From: Cryobacterium sp.
GTDB taxonomy: Bacteria; Actinomycetota; Actinomycetes; Actinomycetales; Microbacteriaceae
Direction of reading: 5' to 3'
Length of the DNA stretch: 64,000 bases
NCBI RefSeq assembly: GCF_025463825.1
Contig: NZ_JAODBG010000055.1
Span: 1 to 64,000, forward strand
The position numbers and the translations under genes were made by a program. The notes below the pieces were generated by a model, which had not been told where the DNA came from, ran no database searches, and worked only from the letters and a program-made list of their open reading frames with translations. Below are positions 1,449 through 64,000 of the stretch, one piece after another. Positions within the stretch are counted from its first letter, which is position 1. Each line of letters begins with the position of its first letter.

Positions 1449-2090
1449 GTGTACTTGATTGGGTTGACCGGCGGGATCGCATCGGGGAAGAGCACGGTGG
1501 CGAAGCGATTCGCCGAACACGGAGCCGTGGTGATCGACGCCGACCAGCTGGCCCGGGCCGCCGTGGCGCCGGGCACGGATGCGCTCGCGCACATCGGCGA
1601 AATCTTCGGCCCCGACGTCCTCGCCGAGGACGGCAGTCTCGACCGTTCCCGCCTGGGCGCGATCGTGTTCGGCAACCCCACCGCCCTCAGCGTGCTCAAC
1701 AACGTCGTGCATCCCGCCGTGCGGGCGCTCTCGTCCGCCGCCATCGCCGCGGCGGAGGAGGCGGACCCGGATGTGGTCGTCGTCTACGACGTCCCCCTCC
1801 TGGTCGAGGCCTCCGTCGGGCACCCGTTCGACCTGATCGTGGTCGTACACGCCGACGCCGAGACCCGGGTCCGGCGCATGGTGGAGCTCCGCGGCATGCC
1901 GGAGGCGGATGCCCGCAAGCGGATCGGCTCCCAGGCGCCCGACGCCGACCGCCTCGCCGTCGCCGACGTCGTGATCGACTCGGAGGGGTCCCTCGAAGAC
2001 GCCCTGGGCCAGGTCGACCGGCTCTGGGCGGACCGGCTCCGCACCTCCCGGGGCGCCCACTCCGACTCCGGTGTCGGTGGCGTTCCTTAG
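1449..2090 (+). CDS. coaE: Dephospho-CoA kinase (GTG start)
   Basis: MYLIGLTGGIASGKSTVAKRFAEHGAVVIDAD, typical CoaE P-loop N-terminus. Confidence 0.93.
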   Translation: MYLIGLTGGIASGKSTVAKRFAEHGAVVIDADQLARAAVAPGTDALAHIGEIFGPDVLAEDGSLDRSRLGAIVFGNPTALSVLNNVVHPAVRALSSAAIAAAEEADPDVVVVYDVPLLVEASVGHPFDLIVVVHADAETRVRRMVELRGMPEADARKRIGSQAPDADRLAVADVVIDSEGSLEDALGQVDRLWADRLRTSRGAHSDSGVGGVP

Positions 2091-2099
2091 ACTGGAAGC

Positions 2100-57020: not shown

Positions 57021-57863
57021 TCACTGTTCGACGGTGACGAAGTCAATCAGTTGCTCCACCCGGCCAAGCAACGCGGGTTCCAGGTCGGCGTAGGTGCGCA
57101 CCTGGCCGAGGATCCGTTGCCAGGCGCGGGCGATGTCGGCCTGGTCGTCGTGCGGCCAGCCGAGGGCCGCGCAGATGCCGTGTTTCCACTCGATGGAGCG
57201 CGGGATGGTGGGCCAGGCCGACAGATTCAGTCGGGCCGGCTTGACCGACTGCCAGACGTCGACGTACGGATGGCCGACGACGAGAACGTTCTTGCCGTAT
57301 GGTCCGCGGGCCACCGCGTCGGCGATCCGGCTCTCCTTGGAGTTCGGCACCAGGTGGTCGACCAGAACGCCGACCCGGCGGGTCGGAGTGGGCTTGAACC
57401 CGGCCAGGAGCTCGGCCAGGTTGTCGACCCCCTCGATGTACTCCACGACGACGCCCTCGATGCGCAGGTCCGCGCCCCAGACCTTCTCCACAAGCTCCGC
57501 GTCATGGCGGCCCTCCACGAAGATCCGGCTGGCGCGCGCCACGCGCGCCGGGGCGTTCGCCACAGCCACGGAACCCGACGCGGTGCGGGCCCGGGCAGCC
57601 GGAGTTTTCATGGTCGGGTTCACGAGCTCGACGGGCTGCCCGTCGACCAGGAATCCCGCGCCGAGGGGGAACAGCCGGAGCTTGCCGTGCCGGTCCTCGA
57701 GGGTGACGACCTTCTTCTCCACCCGGATCACCGCACCGCAGAACCCGGTGGCCACCTCCTCCACGACCAAGTCGCGCACGGCCTCCTGGTGCGGCACGAC
57801 CCGACGGCCCGCGTCCTTCCAGCCGTCGAAGAGCACGTCCTGGGAGTATCTGTCATCGTTCAC
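57021..57863 (-). CDS. DUF3097-like protein
   Basis: YSQDVLFDGWKDAGRRVVPHQEAVRDLVVEE; family name from memory; 10 bp downstream of dnaE2. Confidence 0.8.
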   Translation of the reverse strand: MNDDRYSQDVLFDGWKDAGRRVVPHQEAVRDLVVEEVATGFCGAVIRVEKKVVTLEDRHGKLRLFPLGAGFLVDGQPVELVNPTMKTPAARARTASGSVAVANAPARVARASRIFVEGRHDAELVEKVWGADLRIEGVVVEYIEGVDNLAELLAGFKPTPTRRVGVLVDHLVPNSKESRIADAVARGPYGKNVLVVGHPYVDVWQSVKPARLNLSAWPTIPRSIEWKHGICAALGWPHDDQADIARAWQRILGQVRTYADLEPALLGRVEQLIDFVTVEQ

Positions 57864-57873
57864 TGGATCGACG

Positions 57874-60800
57874 TTATCGGAAGTCGCGGGATGGCGTGGA
57901 AGCCGCCACGGTGAGCGGTTCGAACCGGTCGGCGATGAGATTCACGACGCCTTCCGGGGAGCGCTCGAGGATGCCGCGGATCATCAGCGCGGGAGATTCG
58001 CGGGCGATCCGGCGGAAGTGGGTCCACACGCCGACGCTGACCACCACGTTGACGTTTCCCGTTTCATCTTCCAGGTTGATGAAGGTGACGCCGTTGGCGG
58101 TGGCCGGGCGCTGCCGGTGGGTGACCACGCCGCCGACCTCGATGCGGCGGCCGCTTTCGCTCGCTGCCAGCTGGTTCGCGGCCAGGGCGCCGCGCGCCCG
58201 GAGCGCGGCCCTGGCGTGCCGGATGGGATGGTCGTCGGTGGACACCCCGGTGGACCACAGATCATAGGCGACCTGTTCCACGGGGGTCATCAGCGCCAGT
58301 AGCGGGGGTTGCACGGTCTCCAGCGACCCGCGCAGGTGCAGGTCGGTGTCCGCGGCGGCCTCTCCGGCGGTCCACAGCGCCTCGCGGCGCGCCATCCCCA
58401 GGCTCTCGAAGGCGCCCGCGGTGGCCAGGGACTCGAGCTGTTCGGTGTTCAGCCCGGCGCGCCGAGCGAGGTCGTTCATCGACCGGTACGGACCGAACTC
58501 CTCCCGTTCCGACACGATCCGCTCCGCCACCCGGGCGCCGATCGCGCGCACATCCGCCAGGCCGAGTCGCACGGCCAGGCCGGCATCCCTGCGGTGGCCC
58601 GAGTCATCGACGGGCAGCCTCCGGTCATAGTCGGGGACGACCGGCTGGTCGTGGTCGAGGCAGCCGGTCCGTCCGGTCGGCCCGGCGGCGGCGTCTTCGA
58701 TGGCTTCGAGAACCGCGTGCGCGCCGGACCGCTGCACGCAGGGGCGGAGCACGCGCACACCGTGCCGGCGAGCGTCGGCGACCAGCGATTGCGGGGAGTA
58801 GAAGCCCATCGGCTGGGCCCGCAGGAGGGCGGCGAGGAAGGCGCCAGGGTAGTGCAGCTTCAACCAGGCGCTGGCGTAGACCAGCAGGGCGAAACTGATC
58901 GAGTGGCTCTCGGCGAACCCGAAGTTGGCGAACGCCTCGATCTTCTCGTAGATCTCGTCGGCGAGGTTCCCGGTGATGCCGTTGTCGGCCATGCCCTCGT
59001 AGAGGGTGGCGCGCAGGCTGGAAATCTTCTCGACACCGCGTTTGGAACCCATGGCGCGCCGGAGCAGGTCGGCATCCTCGCCGGTGCAGCCGCCGACGGC
59101 CATTGCCATCTGCATGAGCTGCTCCTGGAAGAGCGGGATGCCGAGCGTGCGTTCGAGGACCGGTTCGAGTTTCGGATGGAGGTAGGTCACCGGTTCCTGG
59201 CCGAGCTTGCGGCGGATGTACGGGTGCACGGCGCCGCCCTGGATGGGGCCGGGCCGAATGAGGGCGATTTCCACCACAAGGTCGTAGAAGCGGCGTGGCT
59301 GCAGGCGCGGCAGGGTGCCCATCTGCGCTCGGCTCTCCACCTGGAACACGCCGATGGAGTCGGCCCGGCAGAGCATGTCGTAGACCCCGGCCTCCTCCCG
59401 GGGAATGCTGCCCAGGCTCCAGGATTCGCCGAGCGAGCCGTCGACCAGGTCGAAGGTGTACTGCAGGGCTGCGAGCATGCCCAGGCCGAGCAGGTCGAAC
59501 TTCACCAGGCCCATCCAGGCGCAGTCGTCCTTGTCCCATTGCAGCACGGTGCGGTTTTCCTTACGGGCGTGCTCGATCGGGCAGACCTCCCCGACGGGCC
59601 GGTCGGTGAGCACCATGCCGCCCGAGTGGATGCCTAGATGGCGCGGGAACCCGAGCACCCGGCCGGCGAGGTCGGCGACGCCGTCGGGAATGTCATGGTC
59701 GGGGCTGGACACGGCCGAGCCCCAGCGTTCCACCTGCTTCGACCAGGCATCCTGTTGGCCCGTGCTGTATCCGAGAGCCTTGGCCATATCACGCACGGCG
59801 ACCTTGGGCCGGTAGGTGATCACGTTGGCGACCTGGGCGGCGTTCTGGCGACCGTAGCGTTCGTAGACGTACTGGATCACTTCCTCCCGCCGGTCGGAGT
59901 CGAAGTCCACGTCGATGTCGGGCTCCTCCTCGCGGAGGCTCGAGAGGAACCGCTCGAACGGCAGCCGGTAGAAGATGGAGTCGACCGCGGTGATGCCGAT
60001 CACGAAGCAGACCGCCGAGTTGGCCGCAGATCCCCGGCCCTGGCAGAGAATCCCGTTGCGCCGGGCGAACTGGACGATGTCGTGCACGATCAGGAAGTAG
60101 CCGGGGAAGTCCTTGGCTTCGATTACCGCGAGTTCCTTCTCCAGCCGGTCCCGGACGTTCGCGTTGTAGCCCGGGTAGGCCCGCTCGGCGCCGGCCCAGA
60201 CCAGGTGGCGTAGCCAGCTCATGGGTGTGTGCCCCTCCGGCACATGTTGCCGGGGGAGCCGGGGCCTGGCACGGCGCAGCGAGAAGGCGAGTTCGTCGGC
60301 GAGCGGCACGGTGCGTTCAACCGCCCCCGGGTACCGACGGAAGCGGGCTGCCATCTCAGCGCCGCTGCGCAGGTGCTGAGTCGCCGCCCCTGGCAACCAG
60401 CCGTCCATGTCGTCCAGGCTGCGCTGGGCGCGCACCGCTGCCAGGGCGGAGTACACCTCGAAGTCGTCCGGCCGGGCGTAGTGAACGTTGTTGGTGGCGA
60501 TCACGGGCAGTCCGGCCTGGTCCGCCAGGGCGGCCAGGGTGTCGTTGGTCATGGTGTCCTGGGGGCGGCCGTGGTCGAAGAGTTCCACCTGGACGGCGCC
60601 CCGGCCGAACACCGAGACCAGCCGGTCCAGTTCGCGGGCCGCGGCCGTCTCCCCGTCCCTGCGCAACGCCTGGCGCACCGCACCGGATCCCGACCCCGTG
60701 AGGATGACCCACTGCCCGCCGGCGAGTTCGGCCAGCTCGTCGATGTCATACACCGGCCGGCCCTTCTCGCCCCCGGCGAGCTGTCCACGGGTGAGGGCCG

Positions 60801-61275
60801 TGGCAAGGCGGTGGTAGCCCTCCTGCCCCCTGGCGAGCACGACCAGGTGGGTGCCTTCGGGTTCCGCGACCCCGTTCTGCGGGCGGTCCAGGCCGAGCGA
60901 GAGCTCGGCTCCGAAGACCGTGCGCAGCTCCGGATAGCTCTCCGCGGTCTCGGCGAGGCGGACGGCCCCGTACAGGCCGTCGTGGTCCGTCAGTGCCAGA
61001 GCGTGCAAGCCGAGCTCGCCGGCCTCCTCGAGCAGGCGTTCGGGCGAGCTGCCGCCGTCGAGGAAGCTGAAATTGGAGTGGGAGTGCAACTCGGCATAGC
61101 CGACGACCGCTGTCTGGTGCCGGTAGGGCGGTGCCGGCGGGGCATACGGTTGCCGATGCCGGGACCAGGCCGGACTGTCACCGCCGTCGGCCTCCGGAGG
61201 CGGCCCGCCGGGACGCCGGTCGGAGAGCTTCCGCTCCAGCTCCGACCAGGGAATGGGCGGGTTATCGAATCCCAT
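57874..61275 (-). CDS. dnaE2: Error-prone DNA polymerase DnaE2
   Basis: PHP domain YAELHSHSNFSFLDGGSSPERLLEEA; C-family core CQGRGSAANSAVCFVIGIT, DIDVDFDSDRREEVIQYVYERYG; OB domain. Confidence 0.95.
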   Translation of the reverse strand: MGFDNPPIPWSELERKLSDRRPGGPPPEADGGDSPAWSRHRQPYAPPAPPYRHQTAVVGYAELHSHSNFSFLDGGSSPERLLEEAGELGLHALALTDHDGLYGAVRLAETAESYPELRTVFGAELSLGLDRPQNGVAEPEGTHLVVLARGQEGYHRLATALTRGQLAGGEKGRPVYDIDELAELAGGQWVILTGSGSGAVRQALRRDGETAAARELDRLVSVFGRGAVQVELFDHGRPQDTMTNDTLAALADQAGLPVIATNNVHYARPDDFEVYSALAAVRAQRSLDDMDGWLPGAATQHLRSGAEMAARFRRYPGAVERTVPLADELAFSLRRARPRLPRQHVPEGHTPMSWLRHLVWAGAERAYPGYNANVRDRLEKELAVIEAKDFPGYFLIVHDIVQFARRNGILCQGRGSAANSAVCFVIGITAVDSIFYRLPFERFLSSLREEEPDIDVDFDSDRREEVIQYVYERYGRQNAAQVANVITYRPKVAVRDMAKALGYSTGQQDAWSKQVERWGSAVSSPDHDIPDGVADLAGRVLGFPRHLGIHSGGMVLTDRPVGEVCPIEHARKENRTVLQWDKDDCAWMGLVKFDLLGLGMLAALQYTFDLVDGSLGESWSLGSIPREEAGVYDMLCRADSIGVFQVESRAQMGTLPRLQPRRFYDLVVEIALIRPGPIQGGAVHPYIRRKLGQEPVTYLHPKLEPVLERTLGIPLFQEQLMQMAMAVGGCTGEDADLLRRAMGSKRGVEKISSLRATLYEGMADNGITGNLADEIYEKIEAFANFGFAESHSISFALLVYASAWLKLHYPGAFLAALLRAQPMGFYSPQSLVADARRHGVRVLRPCVQRSGAHAVLEAIEDAAAGPTGRTGCLDHDQPVVPDYDRRLPVDDSGHRRDAGLAVRLGLADVRAIGARVAERIVSEREEFGPYRSMNDLARRAGLNTEQLESLATAGAFESLGMARREALWTAGEAAADTDLHLRGSLETVQPPLLALMTPVEQVAYDLWSTGVSTDDHPIRHARAALRARGALAANQLAASESGRRIEVGGVVTHRQRPATANGVTFINLEDETGNVNVVVSVGVWTHFRRIARESPALMIRGILERSPEGVVNLIADRFEPLTVAASTPSRDFR

Positions 61276-61301
61276 GAGGTCGCTGCTCCCTGTCGGCCTG
61301 G

Positions 61302-62879
61302 TCAGTCATAGCGGGCCTCCGCCCGCCAGCCCTGGTCGTCCAGAGCCAGCAGCCAGGCGTCCCCGGTGTCTTCCACGATCTGCACGCGATGCACGGTCCG
61401 CGCCGTTGCCGGGTCCCACCAGCGCTCCTGAACGGGCCACGGACCGGCCCAGGCCACCACCGTGTGTCGACCCGTCCCGTCCGTTCCCACGTCGAGCGGG
61501 TGCGGTTCGAAAACGACGGGCACTCCGTCCAGGCCACCACGGTCGTCCGTGGAAACCGGCCGGTCATTCGCGGCCAGAAGAGTCACGGGTCGGTGCTCCC
61601 GGTACACGGTCGAGGGCGTCTGGCCGCCCAGGCTGCCGGACCACGGGCGGGCCGGGCCGCGGGAATCGGCCCCTGGAGCGGTATCGTCGCCCCAGGGCAC
61701 CCAGCGTTGCCGGTCGGCGAGCAGCCGCCCGCCGCCGACGCCCGCTGTCACGACCCCGGCGTGGCCGACCAGGCCCTGCACCCGGGTGAGCGCGTGGTGG
61801 ATACGCTCGTCCGGGCCGGTACCCCAGAGGCCGTCCTCGTGGTTCGCGACCGCGTCCACGCGCTCGGGGGACAGCACGACGCGGACGATTCCCGCGGCCA
61901 GGCCGGACCCCGCCCGGCCGTCACCCTGCAACTGCCAGCGCACCCGGTCGATGAGGTCGGTGGCCGTGAACCAGCGGGGATGCCGCCAAGTGCGGTCGGT
62001 GAGCGAGCCGTCCTCGGTGGTCACCAGGATGCTGACGGCCGTGCAGACCAGGGTCTGCTCCCGCAGCGCCTGCACGAAGTCGTCCGCCGTGCTGCGCAGT
62101 GCGAAGGCGAGCTGGTCGATGCGGTCGAGGGCGGGTTCGAAGTCCTGGCCGCGGTCGAAGACCGGGGTGGGGGTGCGGGGCACCACCTCTTCCCGCTCGT
62201 GCCCGGCGGCCCTGCCGTGGGCCCGGGCCGCCGCCGCGCCGAAGCGGCGGTGCACGTCCTGCGCGGGAAGGGCGGCGAACTGCCCCAGGGTGTGCACGCC
62301 CAGCCGGGCCAGCAGGATGCCCAGGGGGACGTCCACCACCTCGCCTACCGGCAGCGGGGCGAGGAACACCGCCGACTCGCCCGGCGGGATGATGCGCACC
62401 GGCACCCCACCGCGCCGCGCGGCCTGCTCGGCGGCGAACGGCCCGTCGGCGATGCCGACCCGGGCCCCGGCCAGCCCGGTTGTGTGCAGATATGCCAACA
62501 GCGCCAGCGCCGCGGCCTCCTCGCCCCCGTAGTAGCGCACCGGTCCGCGGGCGCGGATGGCGCACGTTCCCGGGCGGACCACGGCCACCCCCGGGGTGAG
62601 CGCCTCGATGCCGTCGAGAACCGGCTCGAAGGCTCGTCGGTCAAGGACCGGGTCGTAGGGCAGCACGAGCAGGCCGGTGCAGCGGAACTGGGCCTCCCGC
62701 ACAGTCAGGCCGCGGCGGACGCCGTCCACCCGTGCCGCGGGCGAACAGGCGAACACCAGTCCGCGATCGATCAGGGCCAGCGGGGTGTCCGGCGGCAGGT
62801 CGGCGGCTGACCTGGCGGCCAGCACCGGCCAGTCCGGGCACCACAGCACGATGGTGCGTTCGCGGTTCATGGTGGTCAT
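61302..62879 (-). CDS. imuB: ImuB-like Y-family polymerase homologue
   Basis: RTIVLWCPDWPVLAARSAADLPPDTPLALI; lies between imuA'-like gene and dnaE2. Confidence 0.9.
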   Translation of the reverse strand: MTTMNRERTIVLWCPDWPVLAARSAADLPPDTPLALIDRGLVFACSPAARVDGVRRGLTVREAQFRCTGLLVLPYDPVLDRRAFEPVLDGIEALTPGVAVVRPGTCAIRARGPVRYYGGEEAAALALLAYLHTTGLAGARVGIADGPFAAEQAARRGGVPVRIIPPGESAVFLAPLPVGEVVDVPLGILLARLGVHTLGQFAALPAQDVHRRFGAAAARAHGRAAGHEREEVVPRTPTPVFDRGQDFEPALDRIDQLAFALRSTADDFVQALREQTLVCTAVSILVTTEDGSLTDRTWRHPRWFTATDLIDRVRWQLQGDGRAGSGLAAGIVRVVLSPERVDAVANHEDGLWGTGPDERIHHALTRVQGLVGHAGVVTAGVGGGRLLADRQRWVPWGDDTAPGADSRGPARPWSGSLGGQTPSTVYREHRPVTLLAANDRPVSTDDRGGLDGVPVVFEPHPLDVGTDGTGRHTVVAWAGPWPVQERWWDPATARTVHRVQIVEDTGDAWLLALDDQGWRAEARYD

Positions 62880-63667
62880 CCCGCCACCGGGTGCCGCCGC
62901 GCGGCCGGTACCGCCCTGGCCGGGTCGCGGCGGGAGACCGGGAGGCCGTCCACGCTCCCGGCCTCACCGGCGGCTCGGTCGGGAAGGTGCAACCGCTCGG
63001 TGCGCCGGGGCCCGTTGCGATCGATGACCGCGACGGTGAGGTCCCGGCCGGAGAGGTAGCCGTGCCCGGTGCCCAGGCCCTCCCAACGGCTGCCGGTCAC
63101 CCGCAGGGCCGCCTCGCTCTGCGCCCAGGTACCCGCGACGAGGAGGGTGCAGCCGGTCTGGCGCAGGCGAGCGCCGAGCCGGGCCACCTCGGCGGCGCCC
63201 ACGGAACGCTGTGGACGAACCACCACGAGCGGCAGCACATCCACCAGCGCCGCCGTCACGGCCAGCCACTGATCGCCGGGGGAGGGAACGAGCACCAGCC
63301 GCTCCAGGTCGATGCCGAAACCGAGCGCCGCCTCGACGCCGAAATCGGGCAGGCCCACGATCGCACCCCAGCCGCCGTCCGTGGTGGCCGCTCCGAGAAT
63401 CGCCATGATGAGCGAGGTGGAATTCTCGACGGTGTACACCACACCGCTGCGCAGCATTCCGTTCGGGAGCAGCCCGGCCAGGCCACCGGGGAGCGCGCGC
63501 CCGTTCGGCTCCCAGCGGGCCCGCTGCATGCCGTTCATCCGTTCCCGCAGCTCCGTCACGCGCTCCGCCGCCGTTCCCGGGGCCGCGCGGCCGGGCGTGC
63601 CGTCGAGGGTCGACGACACGGGTGCAACGGAAGTCAGGGGGAGAGCCACCCTCCAATTTTCGAACAC
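62876..63667 (-). CDS. ImuA'-like protein (start uncertain, probably downstream of 63667)
   Basis: ALPGGLAGLLPNGMLRSGVVYTVENSTSLIMAIL RecA-like region without a Walker A; 4-bp overlap with imuB. Confidence 0.8.
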   Translation of the reverse strand: MFENWRVALPLTSVAPVSSTLDGTPGRAAPGTAAERVTELRERMNGMQRARWEPNGRALPGGLAGLLPNGMLRSGVVYTVENSTSLIMAILGAATTDGGWGAIVGLPDFGVEAALGFGIDLERLVLVPSPGDQWLAVTAALVDVLPLVVVRPQRSVGAAEVARLGARLRQTGCTLLVAGTWAQSEAALRVTGSRWEGLGTGHGYLSGRDLTVAVIDRNGPRRTERLHLPDRAAGEAGSVDGLPVSRRDPARAVPAARRHPVAG

Positions 63668-63675
63668 AGATTCGA
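63660..63675. promoter_or_regulatory. LexA (SOS) box candidate
   Basis: TCGAACACAGATTCGA, one mismatch to TCGAAC-N4-GTTCGA. Confidence 0.75.
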
Positions 63676-63733
63676 ATTAGTCAACCGGTGTGGATAACCC
63701 GGTCCGACCGGGCCGGCACGGTAGCCTGAGCCT

Positions 63734-64000
63734 ATGTGTGGGCGATTCATCATGACCGATTCGGCGCCTGACCTCGCCGCCATGTTCGACATCGAGCACG
63801 AGGCCGGCGCACTGCCGGAGCCGTCCTGGAACGTCAAACCGACGGAGCAGATCCCCATCGTGCTCGAATCGGGTAAGTCCGACCCGGTCGTCCGCCGGCT
63901 GGAATCGGCGCGCTGGTCGCTGGTACCCACGTTCTCGCCGGAGTTGTCGGCCGCCTTCGCCACGTTCAACGCCCGCGCGGAGACCGTCTCGGAGAAGCCG
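63734..64000 (+). CDS. SRAP/HMCES-like SOS response-associated peptidase (3' truncated; absent from ORF track)
   Basis: ATGTGTGGGCGATTC = MCGRF with catalytic Cys2; continues ...WNVKPTEQIPIV...RRLESARWSLVPTF...FATFNARAETVSEKP. Confidence 0.93.
   Translation, partial: MCGRFIMTDSAPDLAAMFDIEHEAGALPEPSWNVKPTEQIPIVLESGKSDPVVRRLESARWSLVPTFSPELSAAFATFNARAETVSEKP

Follow-up and report, generated by a model that had tools for sequence, protein, structure and literature searches.

A predicted LexA operator within the imuA' promoter of a Cryobacterium mutasome and a divergent SRAP gene with a probable promoter of its own

The DNA analysed here is a stretch of 64,000 nucleotides from a Cryobacterium sp. 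contig (hereafter the window), and by its named relatives it falls in Cryobacterium, within the Microbacteriaceae. Towards its right-hand end, a LexA-type box separates two divergently oriented transcription units. Leftward from the box, imuA', imuB and dnaE2 follow each other in one run of genes, so that all three components of the mutasome are present and adjacent; the first of them matches the NCBIfam profile ImuA' (NF058630, E 5e-49). Rightward lies a gene of the SRAP (YedK/HMCES) family, the product of which matches both YedK and HMCES in the PDB and starts with MCGRF, having the Cys2 next to the initiator Met that is characteristic of the SRAP domain. It is missing from the open reading frame track because its stop lies past the end of the window. 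The layout of a leftward imuA'-like gene, a box and a rightward SRAP gene, as given in a preliminary description of this DNA, is thus borne out (Table 1).

Table 1. Genes and predicted promoter elements at the mutasome-SRAP locus (window positions)
Feature	Position	Strand	Basis or remark
dnaE2, error-prone DNA polymerase	57874..61275	-	NF004225, 1450 bits
imuB, Y-family-like mutasome subunit	61302..62879	-	PF00817
imuA'	62876..63649	-	probable leaderless GTG start, six bases past the -10
imuA' -10, GAAAAT	63656..63661	-	GANNAT in 28/30 loci; putative
LexA (SOS) box, TCGAACACAGATTCGA	63660..63675	.	within the 17-bp imuA' promoter spacer; position and conservation
imuA' -35, TTGACT	63679..63684	-	TTGAC at this register in 28/30 loci; putative promoter
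DnaA-box-like 9-mer, perfect, TTATCCACA	63689..63697	-	next to the imuA' -35; 11/12 clade genomes
SRAP -10, TAGCCT	63722..63727	+	six bases ahead of the ATG, leaderless; putative
SRAP (YedK/HMCES family)	63734..64000, on to 64462	+	ATG start; PF02586, 208 bits; PDB matches

Read on the forward strand, TCGAACACAGATTCGA deviates by a single mismatch from the actinobacterial LexA palindrome TCGAAC-N4-GTTCGA and has its core, CGAA-N6-TTCG. It fills the 17-bp spacer between the TTGACT and GAAAAT elements of a predicted leaderless imuA' promoter, sharing the first two bases of the latter. Of 30 imuA' loci in Cryobacterium and further genera, 28 show this geometry of -35, box and -10, and 28 likewise have their start codon at box+26. 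On the basis of this register, the leaderless GTG at 63649-63647 is most likely the imuA' start. A longer reading frame starting at 63667 was considered and set aside; its start would fall inside the LexA box, and the leaderless GTG is likelier.

The box accompanies every imuA' gene in Cryobacterium (22/22), its location within the promoter being fixed, and occurs in other genera as well, where some imuA' loci have a perfect LexA box and no adjoining SRAP gene. The same core is present upstream of lexA in 44 of the 45 congeners examined, in agreement with the expected autoregulation of lexA. Genome-wide (3.53 Mb), 21 sites have at most one mismatch, as compared with 9 for the reversed control, and about 0.0005 such sites would be expected in the gap of approximately 84 bp between the imuA' and SRAP start codons, so that a chance occurrence there is unlikely. 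The one departure from the consensus could suggest a fortuitous match without LexA function, but conservation at a fixed promoter position in all 22 genes and in other genera already contradicts this, and we regard it as extremely unlikely. The recognition of a LexA-like box in the preliminary description therefore holds, and TCGAACACAGATTCGA is strongly supported as a genuine predicted LexA operator of the mutasome. Elsewhere in the genome, a perfect LexA box (TCGAACATGTGTTCGA, L006:1501-1516) lies directly upstream of a gene resembling an SplB-type radical SAM protein.

Bound between the -35 and -10 elements, LexA would block RNA polymerase at the imuA' promoter, and its damage-induced cleavage would release the leaderless imuA' transcript. 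In mycobacterial mutasome work, imuA'-imuB is treated as SOS-box regulated (PMC8151990). The locus resembles the LexA-controlled imuA'-imuB/dnaE2 mutasomes of mycobacteria and other organisms in having the same genes, a LexA box in the promoter and an expected SOS induction. It differs from them in that imuA', imuB and dnaE2 form one run, the mRNA is apparently leaderless and a SRAP gene is divergently oriented.

To what extent the box belongs to the SRAP gene can be judged from its distribution in the genus. Among 57 Cryobacterium genomes, all 57 have lexA, 55 have this SRAP gene and 22 have imuA'. The preliminary description had named conservation of the divergent arrangement in related genomes as a check, and the outcome is twofold: every one of the 16 genomes with an adjacent, divergent imuA' has the box upstream of SRAP (16/16), but none of the 39 genomes lacking this adjacency has it within 300 bp upstream of the gene (0/39), even with a relaxed pattern and although all of these genomes have lexA. 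The corresponding Fisher p of 3e-14 ignores the kinship of the loci and is not a count of events, since the 55 loci share ancestry; on the tree, the mutasome was gained or lost just four or five times, and no more than two contrasts in adjacency are independent. In two genomes (G032 and G054) a distance of about 1 kb separates SRAP from imuA', in G054 with a separate gene of 267 codons in between, and the box remains beside imuA'.

Flanked by DUF3097 and SRAP, the mutasome operon (57021-63649) appears as a presence/absence cassette, 35 of the 57 Cryobacterium genomes being without imuA'. In 33 of these 35, SRAP faces DUF3097 within 1.5 kb. In the window, DUF3097 is situated just beyond dnaE2, and the locus is therefore the same, with the mutasome alone missing. 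Across 396 genomes of the order, three true LexA boxes were found near SRAP (that of the window included), all with a divergent imuA'. A member of another genus of the Microbacteriaceae (G308) has the same divergent pair, with the LexA box on its imuA' side and a PafBC motif on its SRAP side, and G415, from a third genus that belongs to a different family, also combines the divergent imuA'/SRAP pair with a LexA box. In G286, a candidate box situated 5-35 bp upstream of what resembled a SRAP start was rejected, as the frame that it precedes is ruvA-like.

The SRAP gene appears to have a promoter of its own. A TANNNT sequence lies 6-7 nt ahead of its ATG in 55/55 Cryobacterium genomes, whether the box is present or absent. 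Counted from the SRAP start, the box occupies -74 to -59, ending 58 bp before the ATG, and overlaps neither the SRAP -10 nor the likely -35; it is upstream of any likely SRAP core promoter. Thus, the box is located in the promoter of imuA', where it fills the spacer, and not in that of SRAP. The divergent gene would use a separate leaderless promoter with its core outside the box, and would not be a direct target of LexA. The same genome contains a second, distant SRAP paralogue (L004:469-1194, G000:C63), with no LexA box in the 300 bp upstream at up to 3 mismatches. In another genome (G050, L175) the SRAP gene is seemingly split by a frameshift, giving one match to query residues 1-167 and another to 168-233, either as a pseudogene or through a sequencing error.

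A second type of damage control has to be considered for SRAP. From mycobacterial work, PafBC is described as a LexA-independent activator acting via the RecA-NDp motif (PMC6789036, PMC8223512, PMC8151990). This motif was scored as TTGTCRGTG-N8-TAnnnT, aligned to the -10 of SRAP. When up to two mismatches are allowed, it is found at SRAP in 10 of the 55 Cryobacterium genomes, as compared with 0.16% of shuffles, and also in some Microbacterium outgroups; the exact motif is found at SRAP in 12 of the 396 genomes of the order (control 0). The likeness to RecA-NDp/PafBC promoters thus extends to the SRAP promoters of several members of Cryobacterium, Microbacterium and other genera, at a fixed -29/-30 position. 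The SRAP promoter of the window itself differs from them: it has the -10 TAGCCT and has lost the -26 half, which carries six mismatches. Among the papers searched for a link of PafBC with SRAP, YedK or HMCES, the sole match cites YedK for its chemistry, and none gave PafBC data on SRAP.

The genome of the window has an adjacent pair of WYL genes, one of them PafB-like, and ten exact PafBC motifs as opposed to one in the control. Several of these motifs stand directly ahead of repair genes, and promoters of this type precede uvrB and recG-, sbcD- and dnaX-like genes. One of them, TGTCGGTGGCGTTCCTTAGACT, is situated in the window itself (2072-2093, forward strand), six bases ahead of the uvrB ATG, and is likely a leaderless, LexA-independent damage promoter of uvrB. 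Ancestrally, SRAP would have had a promoter of the PafBC (RecA-NDp) type, the PafBC element of which decayed in the clade of the window; in this clade, expression of SRAP is therefore probably constitutive at a low level or governed by a different regulator.

Between the LexA box and the SRAP promoter lies TTATCCACA, by sequence an exact DnaA box, which is specific to the clade of the window and is kept there while the neighbouring spacer is not. It has 16 copies genome-wide, as compared with 4 for the control, and several of these align to the start of the closed chromosome of a relative. It is conceivable, as a tentative and rather doubtful proposal, that two arms of the actinobacterial damage response stand back to back here, translesion synthesis under LexA repression to the left and, to the right, a SRAP gene for abasic-site shielding that was ancestrally activated by PafBC and, in spite of its label 'SOS response-associated', belongs to the RecA-independent branch, and that in the clade of the window, where the PafBC element was lost and the DnaA box kept, the pair is tied to replication.

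The reading that we consider very probable is that the LexA box in the imuA' promoter controls the mutasome, while SRAP is separately promoted and not a direct LexA target, its promoter being ancestrally of the PafBC type and decayed in this clade. It builds on sequence, position, conservation and co-distribution, from which we infer LexA binding, promoter usage and PafBC activation. The preliminary description had suggested instead that a single box co-regulates both genes, LexA repressing the two promoters and the SOS response inducing mutasome and SRAP together. For the mutasome, this agrees with the position of the box, its conservation and the core at lexA; for SRAP it does not, as the box is never kept upstream of that gene without imuA' and stands clear of the gene's own promoter. 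Joint repression would suit the location of the box between the two genes, and also the distance from box to SRAP, which is constant at 73-74 in the 12 genomes of the window's clade despite divergence of the spacer sequence; this could reflect a functional spacing and would then count against separate control. LexA is, moreover, able to act from unusual positions. A weak or indirect effect of LexA on SRAP is possible in this species. A precedent exists in Acinetobacter, where a UmuDAb operator between umuDAb and ddrR provides one damage-repressor site for two divergent genes (PMC7273328). There, the operator overlaps the -35 elements of both genes, whereas here the box overlaps the imuA' promoter only, and the Acinetobacter SRAP gene A1S_2014, next to umuC, is regulated differently from umuC. 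Taken with the distribution in Cryobacterium, joint repression seems improbable.

Less probable still is a competition between the two promoters, in which the polymerase footprints overlap, so that LexA bound at imuA' favours SRAP and the SOS response lowers SRAP while raising the mutasome. The predicted starts are about 84 bp apart in the clade of the window, less than two full polymerase footprints, and about 110 bp apart in the other adjacent clade. However, the argument is purely geometric, and the conservation of the overlap region is already accounted for by the imuA' -35 and TTATCCACA. Separate control being preferred, TCGAACACAGATTCGA is best read as a predicted LexA operator for the mutasome alone.

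The neighbourhood of SRAP and mutasome is itself not new, the occurrence of SRAP beside ImuA, ImuB and DnaE2 genes having been reported already (Aravind et al. 2013, PMC3765255). The locus is like those neighbourhoods in that SRAP is next to the same genes. In that study an SOS function was inferred from the neighbourhood, whereas here the box assorts with imuA' and SRAP appears to have its own promoter. HMCES-type shielding competes for abasic sites with error-prone bypass, and consequently the presence of one switch or two decides whether the cell chooses between them. The comparison of these genomes argues for two separate controls of mutasome and SRAP. It can be predicted that in many Microbacteriaceae SRAP answers to PafBC and not to LexA, despite the name of the family, and Cryobacterium, with the mutasome present or absent at the same locus, provides a natural test bed.
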